Shown here one piece after another: positions 47,576 through 63,325 of a DNA stretch of 64,000 bases (positions within the stretch are counted from its first letter, which is position 1; the number at the start of each line of letters is the position of its first letter). Source of the stretch: Deltaproteobacteria bacterium (GTDB lineage Bacteria; Myxococcota_A; Polyangia; Polyangiales; Polyangiaceae). The DNA lies in assembly GCA_003235365.1 (NCBI GenBank), contig QJWJ01000430.1, forward strand, positions 1 through 64,000, in the 5' to 3' direction. The notes below the pieces were generated by a model. That model ran no database searches. It saw nothing but the letters and a program-made list of their open reading frames with translations, and was not told the origin of the DNA. The translations under genes were made by a program, and so were the position numbers.

Positions 47576-48301
47576 ATGGCGCGCGCCGAGCAGAAGTCCG
47601 ACCAGGTACTCAGGGCAGCCGAGCTGCGCAAGACGTACCAGATGGGCGAGGTGGAGGTCCACGCGCTGCGCGGCGTGGACTTCACGCTGGAGCGCGGGGA
47701 GTTGCTGGTGTTGCTGGGCGCATCGGGCAGCGGAAAATCGACACTGCTGAACATCGTGGGGGGCTTGGATGTGCCCTCGTCTGGGCGCGTGTTTTACGAG
47801 AATTGGGAGCTCAGTGAGGCCACAGACGCAGAGCTGACGGACTATCGCCGCCAACACGTCGGCTTCGTTTTCCAGTTCTACAACCTGATCCCGAGCCTCA
47901 CGGCGCTGGAAAACGTAGCACTCGTCACCGAGGTCTCCAACGATCCGATGGACCCGATGGAAGCCCTCACCCTCGTCGGCCTCGCCGAGCGTTCGCATCA
48001 CTTTCCAGCTCAACTATCAGGAGGCGAGCAGCAACGCGTGGCAATCGCTCGCGCCATCGCCAAGCGGCCCAACATTCTGCTGTGCGACGAACCCACGGGC
48101 GCGCTCGACTACAAGACCGGCGTTGCCGTGCTCGAGGTAATCGAGCGTGTCAACCGTGAACTCGGAGCGGCGACCGCCGTCATCACCCACAATGCACCCG
48201 TTGCTCAGATGGCCGATCGCATCGTCGTGCTCGCCGATGGACTGATCACCCGCGACGAACGCAATGCCGAACGCCTCAGCCCCTCCCAGCTCAAGTGGTG
48301 A
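47576..48301 (+). CDS. ABC transporter ATP-binding protein (LolD/MacB type)
   Basis: The 241-residue ATPase is complete: Walker [12 protein letters not shown]-loop [10 protein letters not shown], signature LSGGEQQR, Walker B ILLCDEP and the switch histidine in ITHNAPV. It belongs to the MacB/LolD/FtsE group, which drives permeases by mechanotransmission rather than direct substrate passage. It is the first of four genes: permease, adaptor and a lipoprotein follow with 0-3 nt gaps or overlaps, and the previous stop codon (47556) is 20 nt upstream. It probably pairs with the next gene's permease. Confidence 0.92.
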
Positions 48302-50677
48302 GTGATGATAAGTGCCCTCGACCGCAAGCTGATCCGTGACTTGCTCTCCTTGCGCGGACAAGTCATCACCATCGCCCTGGTCGTCGCCTGCGGCATCAGC
48401 AGCTACATCACGATGCGCACCGCCTACGACTCGTTGGTTCAGTCGCGAGATCGCTATTACCTCGACACGCGCTTCGCGGACGTCTTTGCCAGTCTCGAGC
48501 GGGCTCCCAAGCCTGTGGCTCGCCATCTCGAAGCCATCCCGGGCGTCAGCCGAGTGGACACGCGAGTCGTCGAGCGCGTGCTCGTTCCGCTACCGAACAT
48601 GCCCCGTCCCGCAAGCGGGACCGTCGTTGGGCTCGAGCCACGGGAGGAGGGCTCACGCCTGAACGACGTGTACATCAAGAGCGGGCGAGACATCGACCCC
48701 AGCAGAGGCGACGAGATCTTGCTGCTGCAGGCTTTCGCAGAAGCACACGGATTGCAGCCAGGCGATGACATCGACGCGGTCGTCAACGGCACGCTGCGCC
48801 CATTGAAGATCGTCGGCGTTGCCCTGTCACCCGAGTACGTGCTGGCCTTGGCGCCGGGACAGCTCAGCTACGACCCCGCATCGGTGCCAGTCATTTGGAT
48901 GAATGAAAAGGCGTTGGCGGCTGCGTTTCAAATGGAGGGCAGCTTCAACAACGTATCGTTCGAACTGGAACCGGGCGCAAACGGCAAACAGGTGCTCGGC
49001 GACGTCGATGCGACGCTGAAAGCCTATGGTGGATTCGGAGCGATGCTCCGAGACAAACAGCCGTCCAATTACATGCTCGCCGGCGAGTTGCTCCAATTGA
49101 ACAACATGGCGGGCTTCGTGCCCTACCTGTTCTTGTTCGTCGCAGCGCTCTTGGTCAATGTAGTCCTATCGCGGCTCGTGCAACTTCAACGCCCCGAAAT
49201 CGCCACGCTCAAGGCCGTGGGCTACACGCCGCGAGCAATCGCCATGCACTACCTGGCTCTGGTCTCGGTGATTGTGGTTGGCGGCGCCATCTTGGGCGTC
49301 GCGCTGGGCGCCTGGTTCGGCAGCGCAATGACCGAGATGTACACGAGCCAGTGGTTTCGTTTTCCGCACCCTCGGTATCGACTCGCACCCAGCGCCGTCG
49401 CGTTTTCCGTCGGCATCAGTATCGGCTCGGCGGTAGTCGGCGCGTGGGTCAGTGTGTCGGGTGTCATGAGACTCCCCCCGGCGGAAGCAATGCGACCACC
49501 GGCACCGGCACGCTACCGCAGATCTGCACTCGAACTCGTCGGCCTTTGGGACCTGCTCTCGCCGGCGGCTCGGATGATCTGGCGGGAAGCGTCGCGACGG
49601 CCTCTTCGGCTACTGTTGTCCGCAGCAGGGATATCCCTGGCGACCGGGCTGCTCGTGGTCGCGCGCTCGATGTGGGACGCGATGGACCACCTCATGGACG
49701 TGCAATTCCACCAGTCGATGCGCGAGGACCTGACGGTGACGTTCATGCACCCCGTACCCCGGCGCGCGATTTCGGAGCTCGCGCACATTCCCGGAGTCTT
49801 CTACGCGGAAGGTCTGCGGAGCGTCCCCGTACGCATCGAATCGGGGCACCGTTTCCGCGACAGCGTACTGATGGGCTACCCCCAAGACGTTCGCCTGAGA
49901 CGACTATTGAGTGGGGACGGACAACGCTACGACCTTCCAGAGGGAGGCGTGATGCTCACCGACAAACTGGGCGAGCTCTTGCACCTCGAGGTCGGCGACC
50001 GAGTGACGCTGAAACTCCGAGAAGGCGAGTGGGCGACACGTCAGGCAACGGTCACCGGCTTCATCGATGAACCTTTTGGTCTGCAAGCGCACATGCGTCA
50101 GACGGATCTGGAGCGGCTCTTGCGCGATTCGGGGGCAGTGAACACAGCTCTGCTCCATGTCGATCGAGAGCAGTCGGCGGACATCGAACAACGCCTCAAG
50201 AAACTGCCCGCGGTCGCTGGGGTATCGAGTCCACACGACTTTCGCAAGCAGTTCGACGAACAAAGCGCGGCAATGATCGGCGTGTTTACCGGCATCATGA
50301 CGCTATTCGCGGCGGTGATCGCCATCGGAGTCATCTACAACAACGCGCGCGTCGCGCTATCCCAGCGCACGCGGGACTTGGCGAGCCTGCGAGTCTTGGG
50401 CTTCACGCGCCGAGAAATTGCCGCCATTCTGTTCGGCGAGCAAGCCATCCAGGTTGCCCTGGCGATTCCTTTGGGCATGCTCTTCGGCGACTGGATGGCA
50501 AATGCGATGATGAGCAATGCCGATCCTGAGATGTATCGGATGAAGGTGAATGTCTCCGAACGCACCTACCTGTTCGCCATAGCCGTAACGTTGGCATCCG
50601 CCGTGGCGAGCGCCCTCATTCTGCGGCGAAAGATCGACCGCCTGGACCTCATTGGAGTACTGAAGACGCGAGAGTGA
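48302..50677 (+). CDS. ABC transporter permease (FtsX-like, MacB-type)
   Basis: The 791-residue inner-membrane protein has an N-terminal transmembrane helix (about residues 17-38), a large periplasmic domain, three helices between about 265 and 400 (first FtsX domain), a further helix near 430-455, another periplasmic domain and a final FtsX domain (about 655-780). It starts at GTG 48302, one nucleotide after the ATPase stop; ATG at 48305 is the alternative. Unlike MacB, the ATPase is a separate chain. It probably moves a hydrophobic substrate, lipoprotein or small toxin out of the membrane with the following adaptor. Confidence 0.9.
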   Translation: MMISALDRKLIRDLLSLRGQVITIALVVACGISSYITMRTAYDSLVQSRDRYYLDTRFADVFASLERAPKPVARHLEAIPGVSRVDTRVVERVLVPLPNMPRPASGTVVGLEPREEGSRLNDVYIKSGRDIDPSRGDEILLLQAFAEAHGLQPGDDIDAVVNGTLRPLKIVGVALSPEYVLALAPGQLSYDPASVPVIWMNEKALAAAFQMEGSFNNVSFELEPGANGKQVLGDVDATLKAYGGFGAMLRDKQPSNYMLAGELLQLNNMAGFVPYLFLFVAALLVNVVLSRLVQLQRPEIATLKAVGYTPRAIAMHYLALVSVIVVGGAILGVALGAWFGSAMTEMYTSQWFRFPHPRYRLAPSAVAFSVGISIGSAVVGAWVSVSGVMRLPPAEAMRPPAPARYRRSALELVGLWDLLSPAARMIWREASRRPLRLLLSAAGISLATGLLVVARSMWDAMDHLMDVQFHQSMREDLTVTFMHPVPRRAISELAHIPGVFYAEGLRSVPVRIESGHRFRDSVLMGYPQDVRLRRLLSGDGQRYDLPEGGVMLTDKLGELLHLEVGDRVTLKLREGEWATRQATVTGFIDEPFGLQAHMRQTDLERLLRDSGAVNTALLHVDREQSADIEQRLKKLPAVAGVSSPHDFRKQFDEQSAAMIGVFTGIMTLFAAVIAIGVIYNNARVALSQRTRDLASLRVLGFTRREIAAILFGEQAIQVALAIPLGMLFGDWMANAMMSNADPEMYRMKVNVSERTYLFAIAVTLASAVASALILRRKIDRLDLIGVLKTRE

Positions 50678-50680
50678 ACC

Positions 50681-51925
50681 ATGGCAGAAAGCAGCACAGC
50701 TGAGCGCACCACTTCCAAACAACGCCAACGGGGCCGAACACTCCAACGCGTTTTCAAGCGCGTGCTGTGGGTCGTGGTGGGCGCAGGAGTCGTGGCGGGC
50801 GTCGTCGTCACAGCCATGCCAAAACCGGTCGGCGTGGAACGCCAAGCCGTCGCTCGCGGCGAGTTGCTCGTCACCATCGACGAAGACGGAAAAACGCGAG
50901 TCAAAGATCGCTACGTCGTCTCGGCCCCGCTCTCTGGAAACCTCGGCCGCATCGAGCTGCGCGCCGGAGACGAAGTCAAACAGGGCGAGGTGTTGGCGCG
51001 GTTGGTGCCACTTCGCGCGCCGCTACTCGACGCACGCTCGCGTTCGCAGACCGAGGCACAGGTAGCGGCCGCGCTGGCATCCACTCAACAGGTCAAAGCA
51101 CAAATCGAACGTGCACGTGCCGCACTCGAGTACGCCAAGAGTGAGGCTGCCCGCTACGACAAGCTCTTCAAGCAGAACGCGGTCAGCCAGATGGAGCTGG
51201 ACCGTGCAATGCTCGAAAAGCGCGCACGCACAGCGGAAATGACCTCGGCAGAGTTCGGAGCCAAAGTCGCAGCCCACGAACTACGAATGGCTCGAGCCGC
51301 ACTCGGACGCTACGACGAAAAGGAGAGCACCGAGTCGTTGACGATCCCCAGTCCGATTTCAGGCCTGGTGCTGAAGGTGATTCAGCAGAGTGAAGGGGTG
51401 GTGCAGGCAGGTACACCGCTCATCGAGATCGGCGATCCCAAGGCACTCGAGATTGTCGTCGATGTGCTCACCAGCGACGCCGTGCACATCACCCCTGGTA
51501 GCCCTGCGACCATAGAGGAATGGGGCGGCCCTTCCCTCCAAGCTGCAGTGCGCACCATCGAGCCGTCGGCATTCACTCGCCTTTCGGCACTTGGAGTCGA
51601 AGAGCAACGCGTCAATGCCGTCGTCGACCTGACCGCGCCTTACGACGACTGGTCGAAGCTGGGCGACGGGTATCGAGTCGAGGCCAGGATCGAGATCTTC
51701 CGCACCAACGACGTTCTGACGATCCCCCTCAGCGCGATGTTTCGCCACGACGGCAATTGGGCGGTCTTCATCGACGATGGCGGAGTCGCAAAGCTGCGTG
51801 CGATCCAGGTAGGCCGACGCAACGATACCGTCGCCGAAGTGGCCTCCGGGCTCGCCGAGGGCGACGTGGTGATCGTCCACCCGAGCGACAACGTCATAGA
51901 AGGTGTAAAGCTGGAGCCCCTGTGA
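50681..51925 (+). CDS. Periplasmic adaptor (membrane-fusion) protein, HlyD/MacA-like
   Basis: The 414-residue protein has a single N-terminal transmembrane anchor (about residues 28-45), a biotinyl-lipoyl-like half motif (SAPLSGNLGRIELRAGDEVKQGEVLARL), a helical hairpin (about 110-210), the second lipoyl half (IPSPISGLVLKVIQQSEGVVQAGTPLIEIG) and beta-barrel domains to the end. This is the RND/ABC adaptor fold, which links the permease to an outer-membrane channel. No TolC-like gene is in the window, so the channel must be encoded elsewhere. It follows the permease by 3 nt and overlaps the next start (GTGA). Confidence 0.9.
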   Translation: MAESSTAERTTSKQRQRGRTLQRVFKRVLWVVVGAGVVAGVVVTAMPKPVGVERQAVARGELLVTIDEDGKTRVKDRYVVSAPLSGNLGRIELRAGDEVKQGEVLARLVPLRAPLLDARSRSQTEAQVAAALASTQQVKAQIERARAALEYAKSEAARYDKLFKQNAVSQMELDRAMLEKRARTAEMTSAEFGAKVAAHELRMARAALGRYDEKESTESLTIPSPISGLVLKVIQQSEGVVQAGTPLIEIGDPKALEIVVDVLTSDAVHITPGSPATIEEWGGPSLQAAVRTIEPSAFTRLSALGVEEQRVNAVVDLTAPYDDWSKLGDGYRVEARIEIFRTNDVLTIPLSAMFRHDGNWAVFIDDGGVAKLRAIQVGRRNDTVAEVASGLAEGDVVIVHPSDNVIEGVKLEPL

Positions 51926-54130: not shown

Positions 54131-55417
54131 GTGAACGCGACCGGCCTGCTTCTATTCGGCTGCGGCCAGCTGGGCATGATGGCGCTCGCCCGATTCTTTT
54201 TCCAATGGCTGCTGCACTTCGCCGCCAATGGATCCGCACCCGGCTTGGCCGCTGCGACGGTTGGTGCGGCGTTCTTCGCATTTCGCATCTTCGACGGCGT
54301 GACTGATCCGCTAGCGGGTGCACTGAGCGACGGTTGGGTTCGAAAGGGACGCGAGCGCCGCGCCCTACTTCGCTACTCGTTCCTGCTTCCTGCGATCGGG
54401 CTCGTTCTGGTGTTCGCCCCCGCCCCATCCCTCTCGCCATTGGTCAACTGGCTGCTGCTCGGAATCGGCATGTTCACGTTCTTCGTCGGGTACACGTTGT
54501 ACGCGATCCCGTACTGGAGCCTTCTTGACGACTACTCCCGCGGCCCCTCCGGAACCGATACGGCGCTGCGAGCAACTCTCTCGAACGTTCTCGGGGCGGG
54601 GCTCCTCGCGGCCACAGCGGTCGGTTTTGTCGCGAGCCCAGTGCTGGTCGACTCGTTCGGTTACGGGTGGTCTGCAATCCTGTTTGCCGTCCCCTGCGCC
54701 GCGTTGATGTTGCTCCCCTATTTCTCTCAGCCGGCGACCGTCGGCCCCCCAGTCCCGAACGAGAAGGCGCCATCCTTGTGGCAGAGTTTTCGATTGGCAC
54801 TGACCCATCGCAAGTTCCTGGCGGTCATTGCGTTGTTTGCGGGCGGACAGATGTCGTTCACGATCATGACGGCTGCGGCGCCATTCATCGCAACGGAACT
54901 GGTCGGCGGGGATCTGACGGACGTCGCGTGGTTGCTCGGCCCATTCTTGGGGACGGCCTTGCCGTCTTTCGCGTTGGTTCCTCGACTGATCAAGCGCGCG
55001 GGGTGGGAACGTTCGACACTCGTCGCCACGGTGATGCTGGGAATCGTCTACGGCGGCACTGGAGTCTTGGGCGCCGCGTGGGTGGGAACCCCGCTGCAGT
55101 CGGCTATGTTGGTGTTCGCGATTGGCGGCCCGATGGCTGCTGTGCTGCTGGGCCTCGAGGGTGAAGCAGTGATCGCGTGTGCCTCGGAACGGGGGACCCA
55201 CGTGACGGCGGTGTACTTCGGAGTGTACAATTTCGTGGTCAAAGCACTCAATGGTGTCGCGCTGCTACTCACCGGCGTTCTGTCCGCGCTACGCGACGAT
55301 TGGGGAGTCCTAGCCGTACGCTCGATGGGCTGGCTCGCGGGTGGCCTGTTGTTCGTGGGGGTTCTGCTCTATGTCGCCGTGAGTGCACAGCACACACGCG
55401 GCGCTGCGGTAGGTTGA
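54131..55417 (+). CDS. MFS transporter, GPH (glycoside-pentoside-hexuronide) type
   Basis: The 428-residue inner-membrane protein has about 12 transmembrane segments. GPH-like features are the FRIFDGVTDPLAGALSDGWVRKGRERR segment at helices 2-3 (with the DxxxDP-like acidic cluster), FFVGYTLYAIPYWSLLDDYS near helix 4, and GVYNFVVKALNGVALLLTG late in the protein. GPH carriers cotransport sugars or sugar derivatives with Na+ or H+, but bacterial members with other substrates exist. GTG at 54131 and TTG at 54122 are both possible starts. The gene is followed by the ferredoxin/globin fusion with a 116-nt gap; whether they are cotranscribed is unclear. Confidence 0.85.
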   Translation: MNATGLLLFGCGQLGMMALARFFFQWLLHFAANGSAPGLAAATVGAAFFAFRIFDGVTDPLAGALSDGWVRKGRERRALLRYSFLLPAIGLVLVFAPAPSLSPLVNWLLLGIGMFTFFVGYTLYAIPYWSLLDDYSRGPSGTDTALRATLSNVLGAGLLAATAVGFVASPVLVDSFGYGWSAILFAVPCAALMLLPYFSQPATVGPPVPNEKAPSLWQSFRLALTHRKFLAVIALFAGGQMSFTIMTAAAPFIATELVGGDLTDVAWLLGPFLGTALPSFALVPRLIKRAGWERSTLVATVMLGIVYGGTGVLGAAWVGTPLQSAMLVFAIGGPMAAVLLGLEGEAVIACASERGTHVTAVYFGVYNFVVKALNGVALLLTGVLSALRDDWGVLAVRSMGWLAGGLLFVGVLLYVAVSAQHTRGAAVG

Positions 55418-55533
55418 ACCAGCAGAGACAAAGGCGCGGGAAAACCTCGTCACGTCACTCAATTCAGGGGAAATTGGCTTGCGAGGTAAACGATCGGACA
55501 TCGTTGCCGTCTGTCCATCGTGAGGGGAAGCCA

Positions 55534-57108
55534 ATGAACGATCGAGTCACGTTCGAAGGGATGCGCTACCCGCAGCGCGAAGGAGAGAGCGCGCTCGACG
55601 CGCTGCTGCGAGGCGGAGCCGCCGCGCGCTTTTCGTGTCGCAAGGGCTCGTGCCACATCTGTACGCTACAAGTGACTGGCGGTGAAATCGAAAGCTCTGC
55701 CGCGCAGACCTTGAACGATGAGCAAGTGCGCGCTGGCCTGTTTCTTCCGTGTGTGAGCCGTGCCTGCGGCGAAGTGACCATCCAACGGCCGGACCCATCA
55801 GTGTGGGTTCAAAAGGCCCTCGTTCACGACAAGGAACGATTGTCCGAGCATGTCTACCGGTTGCAGCTGGAGCCGGGTCTCGATGTCACGTGGCAGGCGG
55901 GTCAATACGTCAACCTCGAAGGCCCCAACGGCGACTGGCGCAGCTACTCCATCGCTAGCGTGAGATTGAGCGACTACTTCCTCGAACTTCACGTGAGGCA
56001 CTTCGAAGGCGGCGTCGTTTCGAGCTGGATTGCCGACCAGCTGTCGGCTGGAGACGAGGTGAGGTTTCAGGGCCCATTCGGCTCGTGCACGTACACCAGC
56101 GAGGTCTCAGAGGCACCATTGCTGCTCATCGGTACGGGAACGGGCATCGCGCCCTTGGTCGGCGTGGCGAAGCAAGCCCTACACGCACGGCACCAAGCAC
56201 CGATTTGGATCTACCACGGAGTCAGACAGGCACCCGATCTCTACTTCCACGCTCAACTGACCGAGCTGGCCGCGCACCACCAGAACGTGCAATACGTCGG
56301 GTGTCTGTCGCAGGCGCAAGACGCTGGCTTCGAACACGGGTACGCGGCCGACATTGCCGTTCGACAGCACCCTGACCTGAGCGACGTGCGCGTCTATCTG
56401 GCGGGTAACCCCGAGGCCGTGCAGGCCGCCCGCGTCCAGGCCATCGGGGCAGGAGCTCGGCGAGCGTGGATCTTGGCGGACCCTTTCGTGGATGGTCGCC
56501 CGTACGAACCGCAGGACCGCGAACTGCTTGGAGGTGTCCAACCAGACCCCGAGATTTGGAGCGTACTCGGCGAGGGCAAGCTGCTGACGACCATTCTCAC
56601 GGCGTTTTACGGAGCGGTGTACGCCGATCCGAGACTCGAGCCCTTCTTCCACCGGGTCACCAAGGCCCGTGCAATTCAAAAGCAGTACGAATTTCTACGC
56701 GACGTCTTCACGGGCTCGAAAGACTACTTCGGCGCGCGCCCATTCAACGCCCACCACTGGATGATCATCTCGGACGAACTGTTCGACCATCGCGAGGATC
56801 TGTTCTTCGAACACGTACGTCTGGCAGGCGTACCCGAGCGTCTGATCCGGCGCTGGGCGGCATTTCACGAACTATTTCGACCAGCTATCGTCAAGAGCAC
56901 ACCTCGCGGATTGATCGTCGATGGCGTCGAAACCGTACTCGAAGGGTACACGGAAGAGACCCTCGACACCGGGTCGATCTGTGACGGTTGCGAGAGCGAA
57001 ATGGCAAGCGGCGCGACAGGTAGGATGCACAAGCGAACAGGTGAATTGTTCTGCGATGGCTGCGCGGCTCGTGCCGTCGGCGAGAGTTTGCTGCCACCCG
57101 GCATCTGA
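55534..57108 (+). CDS. Ferredoxin-FNR reductase-truncated haemoglobin-zinc ribbon fusion
   Basis: The 524-residue protein starts at ATG 55534 (GAGGGG upstream). Residues 1-85 are a plant-type 2Fe-2S ferredoxin (Cys35, Cys40, Cys43, Cys73). Residues about 90-325 are an FNR-type reductase with the FAD motif RSYS (136-139) and NAD(P)H motif GTGTGIAP (200-207). Residues about 340-455 are a truncated globin (LLTTILTAFYGAVYADPRLEPFF, likely proximal histidine 407 or 408 in NAHHWMIIS). The tail has CDGC (483-486) and CDGC (507-510), a zinc-ribbon pattern. Flavohaemoglobin has globin first and no ferredoxin; this order is reversed and adds a 2Fe-2S centre. NO dioxygenation or reduction is possible but unproven. 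Confidence 0.85.
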   Translation: MNDRVTFEGMRYPQREGESALDALLRGGAAARFSCRKGSCHICTLQVTGGEIESSAAQTLNDEQVRAGLFLPCVSRACGEVTIQRPDPSVWVQKALVHDKERLSEHVYRLQLEPGLDVTWQAGQYVNLEGPNGDWRSYSIASVRLSDYFLELHVRHFEGGVVSSWIADQLSAGDEVRFQGPFGSCTYTSEVSEAPLLLIGTGTGIAPLVGVAKQALHARHQAPIWIYHGVRQAPDLYFHAQLTELAAHHQNVQYVGCLSQAQDAGFEHGYAADIAVRQHPDLSDVRVYLAGNPEAVQAARVQAIGAGARRAWILADPFVDGRPYEPQDRELLGGVQPDPEIWSVLGEGKLLTTILTAFYGAVYADPRLEPFFHRVTKARAIQKQYEFLRDVFTGSKDYFGARPFNAHHWMIISDELFDHREDLFFEHVRLAGVPERLIRRWAAFHELFRPAIVKSTPRGLIVDGVETVLEGYTEETLDTGSICDGCESEMASGATGRMHKRTGELFCDGCAARAVGESLLPPGI

Positions 57109-57436: not shown

Positions 57437-58747
57437 ATGAACCGTTTCAGGCGCGTGGCGATGCGCGCGCAATCCGTGGGCCCGCGCGCGGGGCGTGCAG
57501 CAGATGACCCGGGTTGGTCGTTCGCCGCCATCATCAACGATTTCGCGACCACGAAGGACGAACAGGGTCGCCCGGTGTACGAGAACCGCGCGCCAGCGGT
57601 GGTCAAAGAGGGGATCCCAATGGTCATGCGCCGCTGTGGATACCCCGACGAGCGCAAAGGCAAGATGATGAACGTCTCCGCCCTGGCGCAGATTACCGGG
57701 TGCCTGGACGAGACTCTGGGCGACATCGCCGCGTTCCACGCCGCACTGCCGAACGAAGAGCCCACCTGGGCACGGTTCGCGATGGCCCTGTGCGACCAAC
57801 TCGGACAACCCGCCAGGCGCGTCCTCGAGGACCGCGACGAGGACCCGGTACTGCCGACCCGCATGTCGGTGGGCTACAAGGTCGCCGCTGGATACCTAGT
57901 ACCAACACGCGAAATACTCCTGCTCGAGTTCGACGGCGCAGCGCCTCCAGCCACCGTTCCAGCCCTGCTCGAGTACGTCAAACGGCGAACGTCACTGGTT
58001 GGGGCCCGAGAAGTCTGTGCCGCCCCGATGACTATGGTCACGCGCGTCAGCGAGGCCTTCATGATGGGGATGGGCGGGGCGTATGGCGAGGTCTCCCCGA
58101 CGAGAATGGCCATGGCTCAGACACTCTGCCGCCAGCTTCTGGTCGGCCTGTTGTGGAAGCGATTCGACTTGGTTTTCGAACGCAAGCTGTTGTTCGAGGA
58201 TTGCCCCGCGTCCGCTCTCAATCCACGAACGGCCCACATCTCGAAGCAGCTGATTCAACGCCGGGAAGAGCTCGCCGATTCGACATTTGCCGAACACCCG
58301 CGGGTTCCGAGTCTTTTCGACGCGGTACACGCATCGCGTTTGAACGAGGCGTTCTCCCGGGCTAGCCACCCCGACGTCCCATGGCCCGCGCTCGAAGACA
58401 TGGTGGCGGAGTTGGTGCGGCACCAGGACGGAGCCATCACTCTGCAACAGGACAACTGCACTGCGCTAGTTGGACAGCGGTTCTCCACTTACCTGCGCGC
58501 CTTTCGGGAATTCGTCGAGGTGTTCGAAGAACTGGAGCGAGGCCTCAGGCAGGAGCTCGGGTTCCCCATTGAGTCGGCGGTCGTGCGGGATCCCACGTTC
58601 TTTCCCGAACCCCGCGCGCTGCGCTGGTTGGAACTGATCACCGGTCATCGCCTACGAAACGGACATGGCGAGCATGCGAGCTGGGTCTTTCGCAACCAAC
58701 ACCGAACGATAACATTGCCGCCACTGCCGATGCTCACTCACGCGTGA
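57437..58747 (+). CDS. Unknown helical protein downstream of the globin fusion
   Basis: The 436-residue protein has GAAGGGGAATGTC before the ATG and no signal peptide. It is predicted by eye as mostly alpha-helical, with several conserved-looking stretches: ALAQITGCLDETLGDIAAF, the Met-rich SEAFMMGMGGAYGEVSPTRMAM and the acidic VFEELERGLRQELGF. It is neither a recognised enzyme nor a known regulator. It ends by overlapping the convergent phosphatase-fusion gene by 10 nt, so transcripts from the two directions would meet here. Function unknown. Confidence 0.65.
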   Translation: MNRFRRVAMRAQSVGPRAGRAADDPGWSFAAIINDFATTKDEQGRPVYENRAPAVVKEGIPMVMRRCGYPDERKGKMMNVSALAQITGCLDETLGDIAAFHAALPNEEPTWARFAMALCDQLGQPARRVLEDRDEDPVLPTRMSVGYKVAAGYLVPTREILLLEFDGAAPPATVPALLEYVKRRTSLVGAREVCAAPMTMVTRVSEAFMMGMGGAYGEVSPTRMAMAQTLCRQLLVGLLWKRFDLVFERKLLFEDCPASALNPRTAHISKQLIQRREELADSTFAEHPRVPSLFDAVHASRLNEAFSRASHPDVPWPALEDMVAELVRHQDGAITLQQDNCTALVGQRFSTYLRAFREFVEVFEELERGLRQELGFPIESAVVRDPTFFPEPRALRWLELITGHRLRNGHGEHASWVFRNQHRTITLPPLPMLTHA

Positions 58748-59796
58748 TCGTCACCAAACATCTCGAGGAACCTCATCTGGGTTTGACTCTGGATGTACCC
58801 CGGGTTGGCTTTTCGAACCTCTTCGACTGCCGAAGCAGCACTGTGGCCTTGCCAGATCAGAAACGCAGCGAGCACGGTACCCGTACGGCCCAACCCTGCG
58901 TCGCAGTGGACCGCAACGGCCGTTCCATTGCCGATCGATCGCTTGATACCGGCAAGCGTGCGGGTCAACTGAGCGGTACCGGGGATGCCCATGTCCTTGA
59001 TTGGTAGGTGACGCCCCTCGATACCGAAGCCCTTCAACGCGGCGGGCGCAACGGGCACCTCAGTCAGGGAGATGAGCACTTCAACTCCGTTTTGGGCGAT
59101 CGCCTCCAGATCCTCTTCGACGCTGCCCAGCAGCCCGGGGCGTCCCATACCGGCAAGGCGATTCGGTATGACCCACCGGAAGTGGCTCGGGAGCGAGGGG
59201 CGGCGGGCAGAAGGCCAGCAGTTGCCCAATTGCAGGAAGCGTCGAGAGAGCGCCGTGGGAGGGTCTTCGAAGAAGGCCTTGGCCGGCCCCGACGCCTCGA
59301 GCCGTCCAGCGCAAAACAGACGAATGTCGTCTGCCACCTCACGCGCGAAAGCAAGGTCGTGAGTCACGATGACGAAGGTCCGTTGACCATGCTGTTCGGC
59401 GAGCACGCCACTGAGCCGCCGCATCGCACGCTCGCTGATGCCACGGGTCGGCTCGTCCAATAGCAAGACGGAAGCGTCAGACTCCAGCGCGTCGAACAAG
59501 ACTCGCTCACGTTCGAGGCTCACTCCCGCGTCGCTTGGGCGATGTGCCTGGTGAATGATTCGCAGTTGAGGACATGCTCGTGTTTCAGTATCACGAAAGC
59601 GCCAGACACCGGCGCGCGACCACCCTGCGGGCATCGGTTCTCCCGCAAGTTGCCCCAACAGCGCGCTCTTTCCGGTCCCCGAAGGCCCCAGCACGACAGT
59701 CGTGCGGCGCTCGTCGATGGAGAAACTGAGCGCGTCGAACAGACTGCCTGTCGGAGTGTTGATACCACCATCATCAACTACGAATGCGCGGGACAT
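58738..59796 (-). CDS. ABC-type ATPase fused to dual-specificity-like phosphatase
   Basis: The 352-residue soluble protein joins two domains. Residues 1-185 form an ABC ATPase with Walker A GPSGTGKS (37-44), a Q in RIIHQ, Walker B VLLLDEP (110-116) and switch His146. The helical signature region is very short, and no LSGGQ is found where it should precede Walker B (only GVSLERERVLFDALES). Residues about 205-350 form a protein-tyrosine/dual-specificity phosphatase: GMGRPGLLGSVEEDLEAI, a possible acid Asp268 in IKDMGIPG, and the P-loop HCDAGLGRT (297-305) with catalytic Cys298 and Arg304. It is the last gene of the leftward signalling operon, 3 nt after the phosphoesterase gene. No permease is present. 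Confidence 0.8.
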   Translation of the reverse strand: MSRAFVVDDGGINTPTGSLFDALSFSIDERRTTVVLGPSGTGKSALLGQLAGEPMPAGWSRAGVWRFRDTETRACPQLRIIHQAHRPSDAGVSLERERVLFDALESDASVLLLDEPTRGISERAMRRLSGVLAEQHGQRTFVIVTHDLAFAREVADDIRLFCAGRLEASGPAKAFFEDPPTALSRRFLQLGNCWPSARRPSLPSHFRWVIPNRLAGMGRPGLLGSVEEDLEAIAQNGVEVLISLTEVPVAPAALKGFGIEGRHLPIKDMGIPGTAQLTRTLAGIKRSIGNGTAVAVHCDAGLGRTGTVLAAFLIWQGHSAASAVEEVRKANPGYIQSQTQMRFLEMFGDDHA

Positions 59797-59799
59797 CTC

Positions 59800-60546
59800 T
59801 CACGTACCTTTCGCCAATCGTTCACCGAGCTCCATCGGGAACCCGGCCTTCTCCAGCGACGCCTGTGTGCGTCGCACGTCGTACGGTATTCGGTGCAGTT
59901 GCACGGTGCGCGCCAATGTGTCGACGAGGGCGACACTCGATCGCGTGTCGCGATCGCGAGGCTGCCCAACCGACCCCGGATTGATAATCACCGAAGACGC
60001 TGACGCCGGCCATTCGACGAGCCCGCTCAGCGGACGTTCCTCAACCTTTCCGTCATCCAACCAGGCGACGTTGGGCCGGTGCGTGTGCCCGCACAACGCA
60101 ACTTGCGGCCAGGCACCATTCTGCGCCACCGCCGCGAGATTCGTCTCAATCATCGAACCCGTCACGTAACCGTAGTAGTGCTCCGGATTGAGGTAGCACC
60201 CATGTACGGCACAGAATTCGTCGCGGACTACGATGTTGTCCAGAGACGAAAGGTAGCCCAACTCGTCGCTCGTCAACGTCTCCTTGGTCCAGCGATGGGT
60301 GAATGTCACGCTGGCAGACGTCATGCCCGGGACCGAAACGCCAGCGACCGCGCGATCGTGATTACCGGCGACGACGTGCGCGCGATGGCGCCGAATCAGT
60401 TCGAGAACCGGACGAGGTTCGGCGTTGTAGCCAACGAGATCTCCCAGGCACAGCGCGTCGTCAACGGACAACGAGTCGATGAAGTCGAGCACCGACTCGC
60501 ACGCGGCGAGGTTTGCGTGAACGTCGCTGAATACCCCTATCCGCAT
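59800..60546 (-). CDS. Calcineurin-like metallophosphoesterase
   Basis: The 248-residue protein starts at ATG 60546 (the frame is open upstream to 60612). It has all five metal-binding motifs of the family: DVH (Asp8, His10), GDLVG (Asp36), GNHD (from Gly61), a VHG and a C-terminal CGHTH. It is YfcE/MJ0936-like in size, probably binding two Mn2+ or Fe2+ ions and cleaving phosphomono- or diesters of small molecules. The stop of the GTPase gene lies at 60548, 2 nt before this start, and the next gene starts 3 nt after its stop, so it sits in the middle of the operon. Target unknown. Confidence 0.9.
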   Translation of the reverse strand: MRIGVFSDVHANLAACESVLDFIDSLSVDDALCLGDLVGYNAEPRPVLELIRRHRAHVVAGNHDRAVAGVSVPGMTSASVTFTHRWTKETLTSDELGYLSSLDNIVVRDEFCAVHGCYLNPEHYYGYVTGSMIETNLAAVAQNGAWPQVALCGHTHRPNVAWLDDGKVEERPLSGLVEWPASASSVIINPGSVGQPRDRDTRSSVALVDTLARTVQLHRIPYDVRRTQASLEKAGFPMELGERLAKGT

Positions 60547-60547
60547 G

Positions 60548-62278
60548 TCAATCGAGGAGTATCCCTTCCACCGTCGAAAGCAGTCGACGCTTTGCCGCCG
60601 CCGCTTCATCACTTCTCGTCGACGCGTCGGCCAGCGAGGACGACAAGCCGATCCTATCGACGTCCTCCCTGGTCAATCCCTCGCGAAGGGCCTCCTCCAG
60701 GGTCGTCAAATAAGACTCGATAGCCGTCGGCCACCGGACGTACTCATCGATTCGTCGCAACAAGCTGTGCCCCATCGCCGGCAGGTTGCTCGACAGTGCA
60801 ATGTCGTCATCGATGTAGTAGACGCGTTCCCGCACGCAAGCGAAGTTGCTCGGATGCACGTCCAACGCGAGCTTGTTGCGCGCCGCCAACTGCATCGACT
60901 CCACTGCGACACGCGCGAACGCGGCGAGTGTATCCTCCAACTGCGCGATGTTCTCGGTATCGACGGCGAGCGTCATCCTCGAGCGGAGCGTGGCAACCCA
61001 CGGCGACACGGTCCAGAGCCAATGGTTTCCCGTACTGTCCTCGGTGAGCGTCAGCACCGTGTCTTTGACCAGGAGTCCGCCCAAGAGTATCTTTTTGCGG
61101 GCCAAAGTGAGCAGTTGCTCGCGCGCGAGTTCCACGTCGCCAAAGCGCCGTCGGCGCGAAGTCTTGAGGCACCACGGGCCGGCTTCCAAGATGCACGTAT
61201 CGGCACTTCCACTGCCGTCTTGCGTGCCCAACTGCCCCACCAGGTCAGTCCTCACGACAGCTTCGTCGATCGGGATCCGACGCAAGATCTCCCTACCCGT
61301 CGCGCTCGGCCAGATGTATCCGCTCGGAACGACGGCCGTGGGCAGAGGAGCCTCCCCGACGCCAGAACGCTTGTCCTCCACAGCGGGGTCCAAACGCTCG
61401 GCTCCCACGTCAGCATCGGAGGGCATCGCTGCACCGGACGGCGCGACCGCTCCAGCGGCGTCAGCAGGAGTAGTCTGCTCAACCGCATCCGACGAGGCGA
61501 CCTCCCCCGCTGCGTCAGAAGACGCGAGGGAATCGTCGGAGCGGACCTCCGCGACGGTGATCGTTTCGTCCACGCTCTTTCGCGCCCGATGTCTCTCGAG
61601 AACGAGGTCGACTCGGCTGACCTGTTGCGAGTGCTCCAAACCCTTGAGCTCGGTCAACAGGTCTTCTCCACTGACGGCAACCCCTTCGAGCGCTGGTAGT
61701 CCCGCCTCGAGGATGGTTCGCTGCACGCCCGAAGACGCCGTACGCACGGCGATCACCATCGTCTCACGGACTCCAATGCCGTTGTCGGCCTGAGCCCCGA
61801 TGCACGGAACCGCGTCGCTGAGACCCAACGCGATGCGCAGCTCCTTGGGGCTCAGCGCCCCGACGACGTCCTGCTTGTTCGCCTGGAGCACCAGCGGCAC
61901 GTCTGGCGCGTCCTCCCTCAAGACGGTGAGCAACGTCGCATTCTCGCGGAGGCTCTCCGGATTGCTATTGGCGACGAACACCACGACATCGGCCAACGAC
62001 AACAAATGACTCCGCCGCGCGCTGAGCGTCGCCTGCCCAGGCACGGTGATTAGATGGCACGACATCGCGTTGCCGGCGATCAAGCCCCCGTCGACCCGCA
62101 ACCAGTCGAGGAACAGCGTGCGACCGTTGACTCCCTCGGACGAGAGCAACTCGCTTCGGCGCCGAGGTGTGAACACTTCGGTCAGCTGTTGCAGATTCGT
62201 CGTCTTGCCCGCAAACGCAGGTCCGTCGTAGACGATTCTGATGACGAGCTTTCCAGTTATGCGGTCGAAGACTGCCAT
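60548..62278 (-). CDS. MglA-like small GTPase fused to a protein-kinase-like domain
   Basis: The 576-residue protein has GGAG 5 nt before its ATG. Residues 1-190 are a Ras-like MglA-type GTPase: P-loop GPAFAGKT (19-26), the effector-like GRTLFLDWLRVDGG, TVPGQ (78-82) and NKQD (134-137). An Ala/Asp/Ser-rich linker (about 240-320) leads to a second domain (about 355-545) with a kinase-like layout: WCLK with Lys372, a helix with Glu383 or Glu387, DVHPSN (473-478) resembling the catalytic loop, and YYIDDD (488-492) in the place of DFG. The kinase-like call is by eye; activity is uncertain. The two upstream genes are Roadblock regulators. Confidence 0.8.
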   Translation of the reverse strand: MAVFDRITGKLVIRIVYDGPAFAGKTTNLQQLTEVFTPRRRSELLSSEGVNGRTLFLDWLRVDGGLIAGNAMSCHLITVPGQATLSARRSHLLSLADVVVFVANSNPESLRENATLLTVLREDAPDVPLVLQANKQDVVGALSPKELRIALGLSDAVPCIGAQADNGIGVRETMVIAVRTASSGVQRTILEAGLPALEGVAVSGEDLLTELKGLEHSQQVSRVDLVLERHRARKSVDETITVAEVRSDDSLASSDAAGEVASSDAVEQTTPADAAGAVAPSGAAMPSDADVGAERLDPAVEDKRSGVGEAPLPTAVVPSGYIWPSATGREILRRIPIDEAVVRTDLVGQLGTQDGSGSADTCILEAGPWCLKTSRRRRFGDVELAREQLLTLARKKILLGGLLVKDTVLTLTEDSTGNHWLWTVSPWVATLRSRMTLAVDTENIAQLEDTLAAFARVAVESMQLAARNKLALDVHPSNFACVRERVYYIDDDIALSSNLPAMGHSLLRRIDEYVRWPTAIESYLTTLEEALREGLTREDVDRIGLSSSLADASTRSDEAAAAKRRLLSTVEGILLD

Positions 62279-62462: not shown

Positions 62463-62873
62463 TCAGGCCGCTGCAGCCTTTTCGACTTGCTCGAGATTGG
62501 CCCGCGACTTGGAGAGCACCATTCCGAGGTTGGCGGAAATCCGGCAGACTACCGTCAGCACCATGTCCTCGTTGCGCTTGCAGCGTTGGAACACGTGAAT
62601 GAGGTTGTCGGACATGATGATGATCTCCTGAAAGAAGTGGTGACCATCATCTTTGACGCCACGGATCCTCTTGAACGTCTGCTCAATCGCGGAGACGTTG
62701 GGCCCCTGAAAAAGCTCACCTGTCGCAGCGGCAACCAAGTCGAGCACCTCTTGCGGGTGGCTATCAACCGTCTTCACGCCGAGAAGCATACCGGTTTTCA
62801 TATCCACGAAACCAACCGCAACACACTCCGGCACAGCCGATCGAACCACGGTCAACGCGTCATCTAGACTCAT
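62463..62873 (-). CDS. Roadblock/LC7-domain protein (second copy)
   Basis: The 136-residue protein is a single Roadblock/LC7 domain with the family features MKTGMLLGVKTV, DLVAAATGELFQGPNV and a C-terminal strand (LTVVCRISANLGMVL). MglB-like Roadblock proteins dimerise and act as GTPase-activating or localisation partners of MglA-type GTPases. It lies 44 nt after the first copy and 184 nt before the GTPase gene start, all leftward; AGGAAAGGA precedes the ATG. It is about a quarter identical by eye to the first copy, mainly in the central helix. Confidence 0.88.
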   Translation of the reverse strand: MSLDDALTVVRSAVPECVAVGFVDMKTGMLLGVKTVDSHPQEVLDLVAAATGELFQGPNVSAIEQTFKRIRGVKDDGHHFFQEIIIMSDNLIHVFQRCKRNEDMVLTVVCRISANLGMVLSKSRANLEQVEKAAAA

Positions 62874-62917: not shown

Positions 62918-63325
62918 TCAAGGCACCAACGGCTCCAACTTCGGAATACTCGCTTTGACCTGAGCCCAACCCATTCCGATGTTGGTGGTCTTCTTGGTCA
63001 CGAGCATCATGACTGCCTTGCCGCCCTTGAGCGTCTTGGCGAAGTGGAAATTGTGCCGCGACGTGATGTGAATTTCGTCGAAGTAGTGCGCACCGTCTTC
63101 GGGGGTTCCGCGGTGAGCACGAACCATCTGTTCCACCCGGCCCACGTTCGGACCTCGAAACATGTCCATCGTCGCTGCGGCGACGACTTCGTTCAGCGTC
63201 TGCGTATACGACGCCGAGTTGTATATCCCCAAAAGCATCCCCGTATCGAGGTCGATGACCCCGCAAGCGATTGCACCATCTACGTTCTCCACGACCTCTC
63301 TGCATGTGTCGTCAATCTTACTCAT
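62918..63325 (-). CDS. Roadblock/LC7-domain protein (first copy)
   Basis: The 135-residue protein opens the leftward operon with GGAGG 9 nt before the ATG. It is a complete Roadblock/LC7 domain (LDTGMLLGIYNSA, EVVAAATMDMFRGPNVGRVEQM, then AVMMLVTKKTTNIGMGWAQVK). It shares the GMLLG and MFRGPNV/LFQGPNV landmarks with the second copy, so the pair probably arose by duplication. They may form a heterodimer regulating the MglA-like GTPase encoded downstream, but this is inferred from gene order. Confidence 0.88.
   Translation of the reverse strand: MSKIDDTCREVVENVDGAIACGVIDLDTGMLLGIYNSASYTQTLNEVVAAATMDMFRGPNVGRVEQMVRAHRGTPEDGAHYFDEIHITSRHNFHFAKTLKGGKAVMMLVTKKTTNIGMGWAQVKASIPKLEPLVP

Follow-up and report, generated by a model that had tools for sequence, protein, structure and literature searches.

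Our analyses of a 64,000 nucleotide stretch of bacterial DNA (hereafter the window) have identified a gene whose product joins an ABC-type domain to a Cys-phosphatase domain, and which probably provides the phosphatase function in a hitherto undescribed Roadblock/Ras-like GTPase signalling module of one bacterial phylum. The gene for this fusion protein is the last member of an operon, whose genes are given below in operon order.

62918–63325 (−): RBL2, a paralogue of RBL1 (36% identical)
62463–62873 (−): RBL1, predicted Roadblock/LC7-fold protein and constant partner of the fusion
60548–62278 (−): MglA-like Ras-superfamily GTPase (residues ~1–235) with a putative kinase-like C-terminal domain (~310–570)
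59800–60546 (−): calcineurin-like metallophosphoesterase (Pfam Metallophos_2, 1.7e-20)
58738–59796 (−): ABC–phosphatase fusion, with an ABC-type domain (~1–195) and a DUSP23-like Cys-phosphatase domain (~203–346)

The fusion is encoded by a single open reading frame of 352 aa, which starts with an ATG at 59796, ends with a TGA at 58738 and contains no internal stops. Its residues 21–56 match the Pfam family ABC_tran (30.9 bits against a cut-off of 25) and its C-terminal part matches Tc-R-P (82.1 bits), PTP-SAK (69.5 bits), DSPc (36.0 bits, cut-off 33.5) and Y_phosphatase (29.5 bits, cut-off 20.9). With both parts above the Pfam cut-offs, the original prediction that an ABC-type ATPase and a phosphatase are joined in one chain at exactly this location is borne out, and all of the motifs that it had listed (viz. 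Walker A, Walker B, the switch His, the phosphatase P-loop and Asp268) are present. The structure model of the fusion, predicted from the single sequence, has a mean pLDDT of 35.

The fusion was compared with homologues at 47 loci within the phylum of the window (48 sequences with that of the window). The ABC and phosphatase parts lie in one open reading frame at 45 of these 47 loci, and the other two are interrupted by the end of a contig. Full-length homologues with 35–48% identity were found in a search of 108 genomes from the family of the window, and profiles run against the order and the phylum retrieved full-length matches in many further families. A scan of contigs with the single sequence, an insensitive exact-pattern method that says nothing on absence outside the phylum, returned weak one-domain relatives only. 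In an alignment of 11 members, G37, G40, G42, K43, S44, D114, E115, D268, H297, C298 and R304 are invariant, which shows that selection acts on both active sites. Because of these invariant catalytic residues and the 45 loci with one reading frame, a chance join or a sequencing frameshift is excluded. The architecture is neither a merger of two separate genes nor missing from relatives, the two outcomes that had been named as counting against it, and the proposal of a non-transport ABC-type domain fused to a phosphatase is supported. Three short regions of the fusion are central to what follows.

58876–58908 (−): phosphatase signature loop HCDAGLGRTGT (H297, C298, R304)
59665–59688 (−): Walker A motif GPSGTGKS, residues 37–44, invariant in the 11-member alignment
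59434–59550 (−): residual Q-loop, degenerate signature and Walker B motif LLLLDEP, with the helical subdomain mostly missing

The C-terminal domain contains the HCxxGxxR[ST] loop in the form HCDAGLGRTG, the Cys and Arg of which are present in all 48 sequences and the His in 47 of them; the acid Asp is likewise conserved throughout. Searches against the PDB matched, over the whole domain, the structures 2img (DUSP23; E 9.4e-18) and 25xa (another dual-specificity phosphatase; E 2.7e-26), the acid Asp, Cys and Arg of both of which align with those of the fusion, the general-acid residue D268 being aligned with the Asp of 2img. These observations support the view that the C-terminal part is a competent-looking Cys-phosphatase with a complete active site, which resembles DUSP23 (VHZ) and related small dual-specificity phosphatases in its entire domain and its catalytic residues. 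DUSP23-type chains, however, are single-domain proteins of ~150–160 residues, whereas the fusion carries an ABC-type domain at its N-terminus.

The ABC-type domain, which is soluble and has no permease, retains only part of the usual motifs. Walker B (LLLLDEP) supplies D114 and the catalytic Glu E115, and the switch histidine H146, in a TH motif, is present and conserved in at least 90% of the 11-member alignment. Where LSGGQ-RQRV of ordinary ABC domains aligns, the fusion has GVSLERERV, and the earlier observation that no LSGGQ signature is recognisable is therefore correct. The distance between Walker A and Walker B is ~77 residues in the fusion, whereas 18 ordinary ABC domains, most of them of the phylum of the window, have 119–139 (median 131.5). 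The helical region is thus indeed short, as had been noted, but that description understates the case, since the helical subdomain is largely missing.

Comparison of the relatives indicates that these losses occurred within the family. The signature is degenerate in most of the relatives; in most members it survives in a weakened form such as LSLADQRRLAIARA, and the helical region is of full length. Ten proteins with a short ABC domain, including that of the window, form one clade with support of 99/97 in a tree based on the phosphatase domain alone, and because all ten group together, the helical subdomain and the signature were lost once there, in the ancestor of this clade. In a more distantly related protein (L061) the ABC domain likewise looks short, a change that seems to have arisen independently, and a further homologue (L056) has lost Walker A as well. 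These degenerate features would suit a dead scaffold, i.e., a pseudo-ATPase that anchors the phosphatase to partners and in which nucleotide has no regulatory role. We consider this unlikely, as the Gly, Lys and Ser of Walker A, the Asp of Walker B and the catalytic Glu are unchanged in 11 diverse members, the window protein among them, and drift would not preserve them.

Three other relatives (L134, L135 and L136) have a tandem ABC-ABC-phosphatase architecture in reading frames of 1964, 1218 and 1195 codons (stop to stop), respectively. In these proteins the first ABC domain has a Walker A motif and the second does not, and the second domain retains, in two of the three, the signature-like motif LSSEQRRRLA. 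This complementarity of motifs would correspond to what is required of a heterodimer that sandwiches ATP and has a single working site, and it suggests that the ancestral form of the fusion did dimerise. It bears directly on the mechanism of the original prediction, according to which the ABC domain could gate the phosphatase by dimerising in an ATP-driven manner. The Walker A, Walker B, Glu and His residues are intact, and the tandem relatives suggest pairing within the family; however, the half of the site that is contributed in trans (viz. the signature and the helical subdomain) is missing from the window protein, for which the mechanism in full is accordingly rather improbable. A canonical ATP-sandwich homodimer of this protein is unlikely from its motifs, and such dimerisation is doubtful throughout its clade, whose ancestor had lost the residues that act in trans; the mechanism is partly supported in that dimer chemistry is suggested for the ancestral form. 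For the window protein, control through bound nucleotide and through partners is more likely than control through an ATP-sandwich homodimer.

Candidate partners are encoded by the other genes of the operon, whose last junctions are tight: the ATG of the phosphoesterase lies one base past the stop of the GTPase gene, and its own stop lies 3 nt before the start of the fusion. The sequence of RBL1 matched no Pfam family and no PDB entry. Its predicted model, which is of moderate confidence (pLDDT 74.7), has as its top Foldseek matches the Roadblock/LC7 structure 3kye and MglB (1j3w/3t12), with a probability of 1.00 and a TM score of ~0.7, and thereby supports a Roadblock fold for this protein. 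Residues 10–177 of the GTPase match MglA (3t12) in the PDB search (E 8.8e-25), and the protein also matches the Pfam family Arf (6.9e-6). Its C-terminal domain (60548–61348, −) matched no family in Pfam or PDB sequence searches; its K / DxxPxN / D-[DE] pattern is invariant and of a type typical of kinase-like folds, and from this pattern we infer that the domain may be kinase-like. The same domain is instead fused to a calcineurin-like phosphoesterase at three loci (L051, L052 and L114). The Roadblock/Ras-like GTPase context was overlooked in the original prediction and is the strongest functional clue in the region.

The association of the fusion with RBL1 extends well beyond the window. A close homologue of RBL1 was found by tblastn and profile searches at 39 of the 47 other fusion loci, on the same strand every time, and at 29 loci it follows the phosphatase domain on the downstream side within 350 nt. 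The occurrence of the fusion within the order is patchy (about 22 of 179 genomes), and the RBL1 family is present in 22/22 genomes with the fusion versus 1/157 without it (Fisher p 3e-27, shared ancestry being ignored). The patchiness of this distribution implies repeated joint gain or loss of the fusion and RBL1, though relatedness inflates the p value. One further genome with the fusion (G031) lies outside the 22/22 count, and RBL1 was found there in a separate search. The sole genome of the order with an RBL1-family homologue and no fusion is G082 (C1:5979360-5979755). The GTPase shows a narrower association, being present at 10/10 loci with a short ABC domain versus 9/38 others (Fisher p 1.4e-5, with loci of varying length and relatives that are not independent); the ten include one locus (L042) at a contig edge where only the C-terminal part of the GTPase is seen. 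It is missing from most of the long-ABC loci examined and hence is not a universal partner of the fusion.

Based upon these results, we tentatively propose a Ras-like circuit in which the Roadblock protein, together with the MglA-like GTPase-kinase in some lineages, may control the phosphatase through an ABC-type domain that was once a transport motor and now acts as a regulatory switch. The same proposal, held with equal caution, has the conversion of the ABC domain occurring in stages, which may be represented by tandem ABC pairs, by a single ABC domain with a weakened signature, and by an ABC domain devoid of both signature and helical subdomain. In the probable reading of the module given at the outset, the ABC domain, with Walker A and Walker B retained, would bind ATP and respond to nucleotide as a regulatory or docking unit; a dimer of the Roadblock protein, either by itself or by way of the GTPase, would engage it and thus set the time or place of phosphatase action. 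The phosphatase would then dephosphorylate a protein, and the phosphate that it removes may have been added by the kinase-like partner, the kinase-like domain of the GTPase in the operon being its obvious candidate source. Pairing of the ABC domains would still be feasible in most of the relatives in spite of their weakened signature. In the clade of the window, where the helical subdomain and signature were lost in one ancestor, regulation probably runs for that reason through partner proteins rather than through an ATP-sandwich dimer.

Two known systems invite comparison with this proposed circuit. MglA and MglB are a Ras-like GTPase and its Roadblock GAP, and the operon of the window similarly includes a Roadblock-fold protein and an MglA-like GTPase; it differs in the putative kinase-like domain of the GTPase, in the lack of any Pfam match for the Roadblock protein and in having an ABC–phosphatase as the constant partner. 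ABC ATPases outside transport function in DNA repair, chromosome organisation and translation, and most bacterial Roadblock proteins have, to our knowledge, no known effector. The second system is that of the actinobacterial conservons (CvnA-D), conserved operons in which a Roadblock protein and a small Ras-like GTPase occur alongside a signalling partner of kinase-like type (PMC13343842). The operon of the window likewise pairs a Roadblock protein with a Ras-like GTPase and a putative kinase-like partner. Neither a histidine-kinase-like CvnA nor a CvnC-type protein was seen in a Pfam scan of the operon genes, and signalling output would in this case come from a Cys-phosphatase and a kinase-like domain. 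A 2014 survey of prokaryotic small GTPases nowhere mentions phosphatases (PMC4316618). We found no account of the fusion in openly licensed papers, an earlier description elsewhere being possible, and within that literature the tie of an ABC-type domain and signalling phosphatase to a Roadblock/Ras-like GTPase system appears undescribed. If the proposal is true, ATP-binding machinery, small-GTPase switching and protein dephosphorylation would be joined in one bacterial module; the family would let the stepwise dismantling of ABC dimer chemistry be followed in a naturally occurring series, and bacterial Roadblock proteins would have a concrete, testable output.

A role in defence or conflict, with an ABC-type sensor comparable to AriA of PARIS or GajA of Gabija releasing the phosphatase as effector, might be suspected from the patchy occurrence of the fusion, from the Pfam names Tc-R-P and PTP-SAK, which are suggestive of toxin contexts and of those of Swiss Army Knife proteins, and from weak PADLOC matches to mad3, AriA, mad8 and GajA. 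These matches, however, are confined to generic N-terminal ABC motifs (best stretches of 37–83 residues) and leave the phosphatase unmatched, no full-length homologue of the fusion was found on plasmids, and the constant link to a conserved Roadblock protein, often with a GTPase, points to signalling. A defence function is hence quite improbable, and a signalling module remains the preferred reading.

Regarding the ancestry of the ABC domain, the best ABC model is PstB, which matches 11/11 of the members scanned and is ahead by about ten orders of magnitude in E-value, and because it scores best across the members, the probable origin of the domain lies in the branch of the phosphate-transporter ATPases. 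The fusion differs from PstB in scoring far below the NCBIfam equivalog cut-off (62.1 versus 343.2 bits), in the absence of a permease, in its degenerate signature and in the fused phosphatase. That the fusion could still be a Pst-like transporter ATPase with an unlinked permease and a phosphate-linked phosphatase added on, as the PstB match and a PstB-like tail pattern seen by eye at the C-terminal end of the ABC domain might suggest, is extremely improbable given this low score, the loss of the signature and of the helical subdomain, which is the coupling surface to permeases, and the pairing of the sole nearby ABC permease with an intact ATPase of its own. The latter belongs to an export-type set unrelated to the fusion.

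47576–51925 (+): ABC export-type set, comprising an ATPase with LSGGEQ, an FtsX permease and a HlyD-family protein

The original prediction had placed no permease gene nearby. The FtsX-type permease (48302–50677, +) and the HlyD-family protein lie ~8 kb from the fusion, and the statement holds only in that this permease has its own ATPase (47576–48301, +) with an intact LSGGEQ. The fusion as the ATPase of the FtsX permease was ruled out, the permease's own ATPase being encoded on the strand opposite to the fusion.

Several other neighbours of the fusion were also noted. A gene for a 436-aa protein (57437–58747, +) converges on the fusion gene; the protein matched nothing in Pfam, NCBIfam or PDB and, judged by eye, may resemble indoleamine dioxygenase-like proteins. 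Large clusters of neighbours without known domains, obtained from all-against-all comparison, look like reverse-strand shadow reading frames and were set aside. Genes for Hanks-type kinases were seen by eye near the fusion in a cluster of 11 loci; such genes are very frequent in these genomes, and for this reason no linkage is claimed. A TPR protein of ~610–670 aa is encoded directly upstream of the fusion at six loci (L123, L124, L125, L126, L127 and L129). The window also contains the following gene near the fusion.

55177–57108 (+): 2Fe-2S, FAD/NAD reductase and truncated-globin domains in one chain (Pfam Fer2, FAD_binding_6, NAD_binding_1 and Bac_globin)

This reductase–globin gene recurs beside the fusion and RBL1 at seven other loci (L048, L054, L055, L060, L124, L126 and L129).
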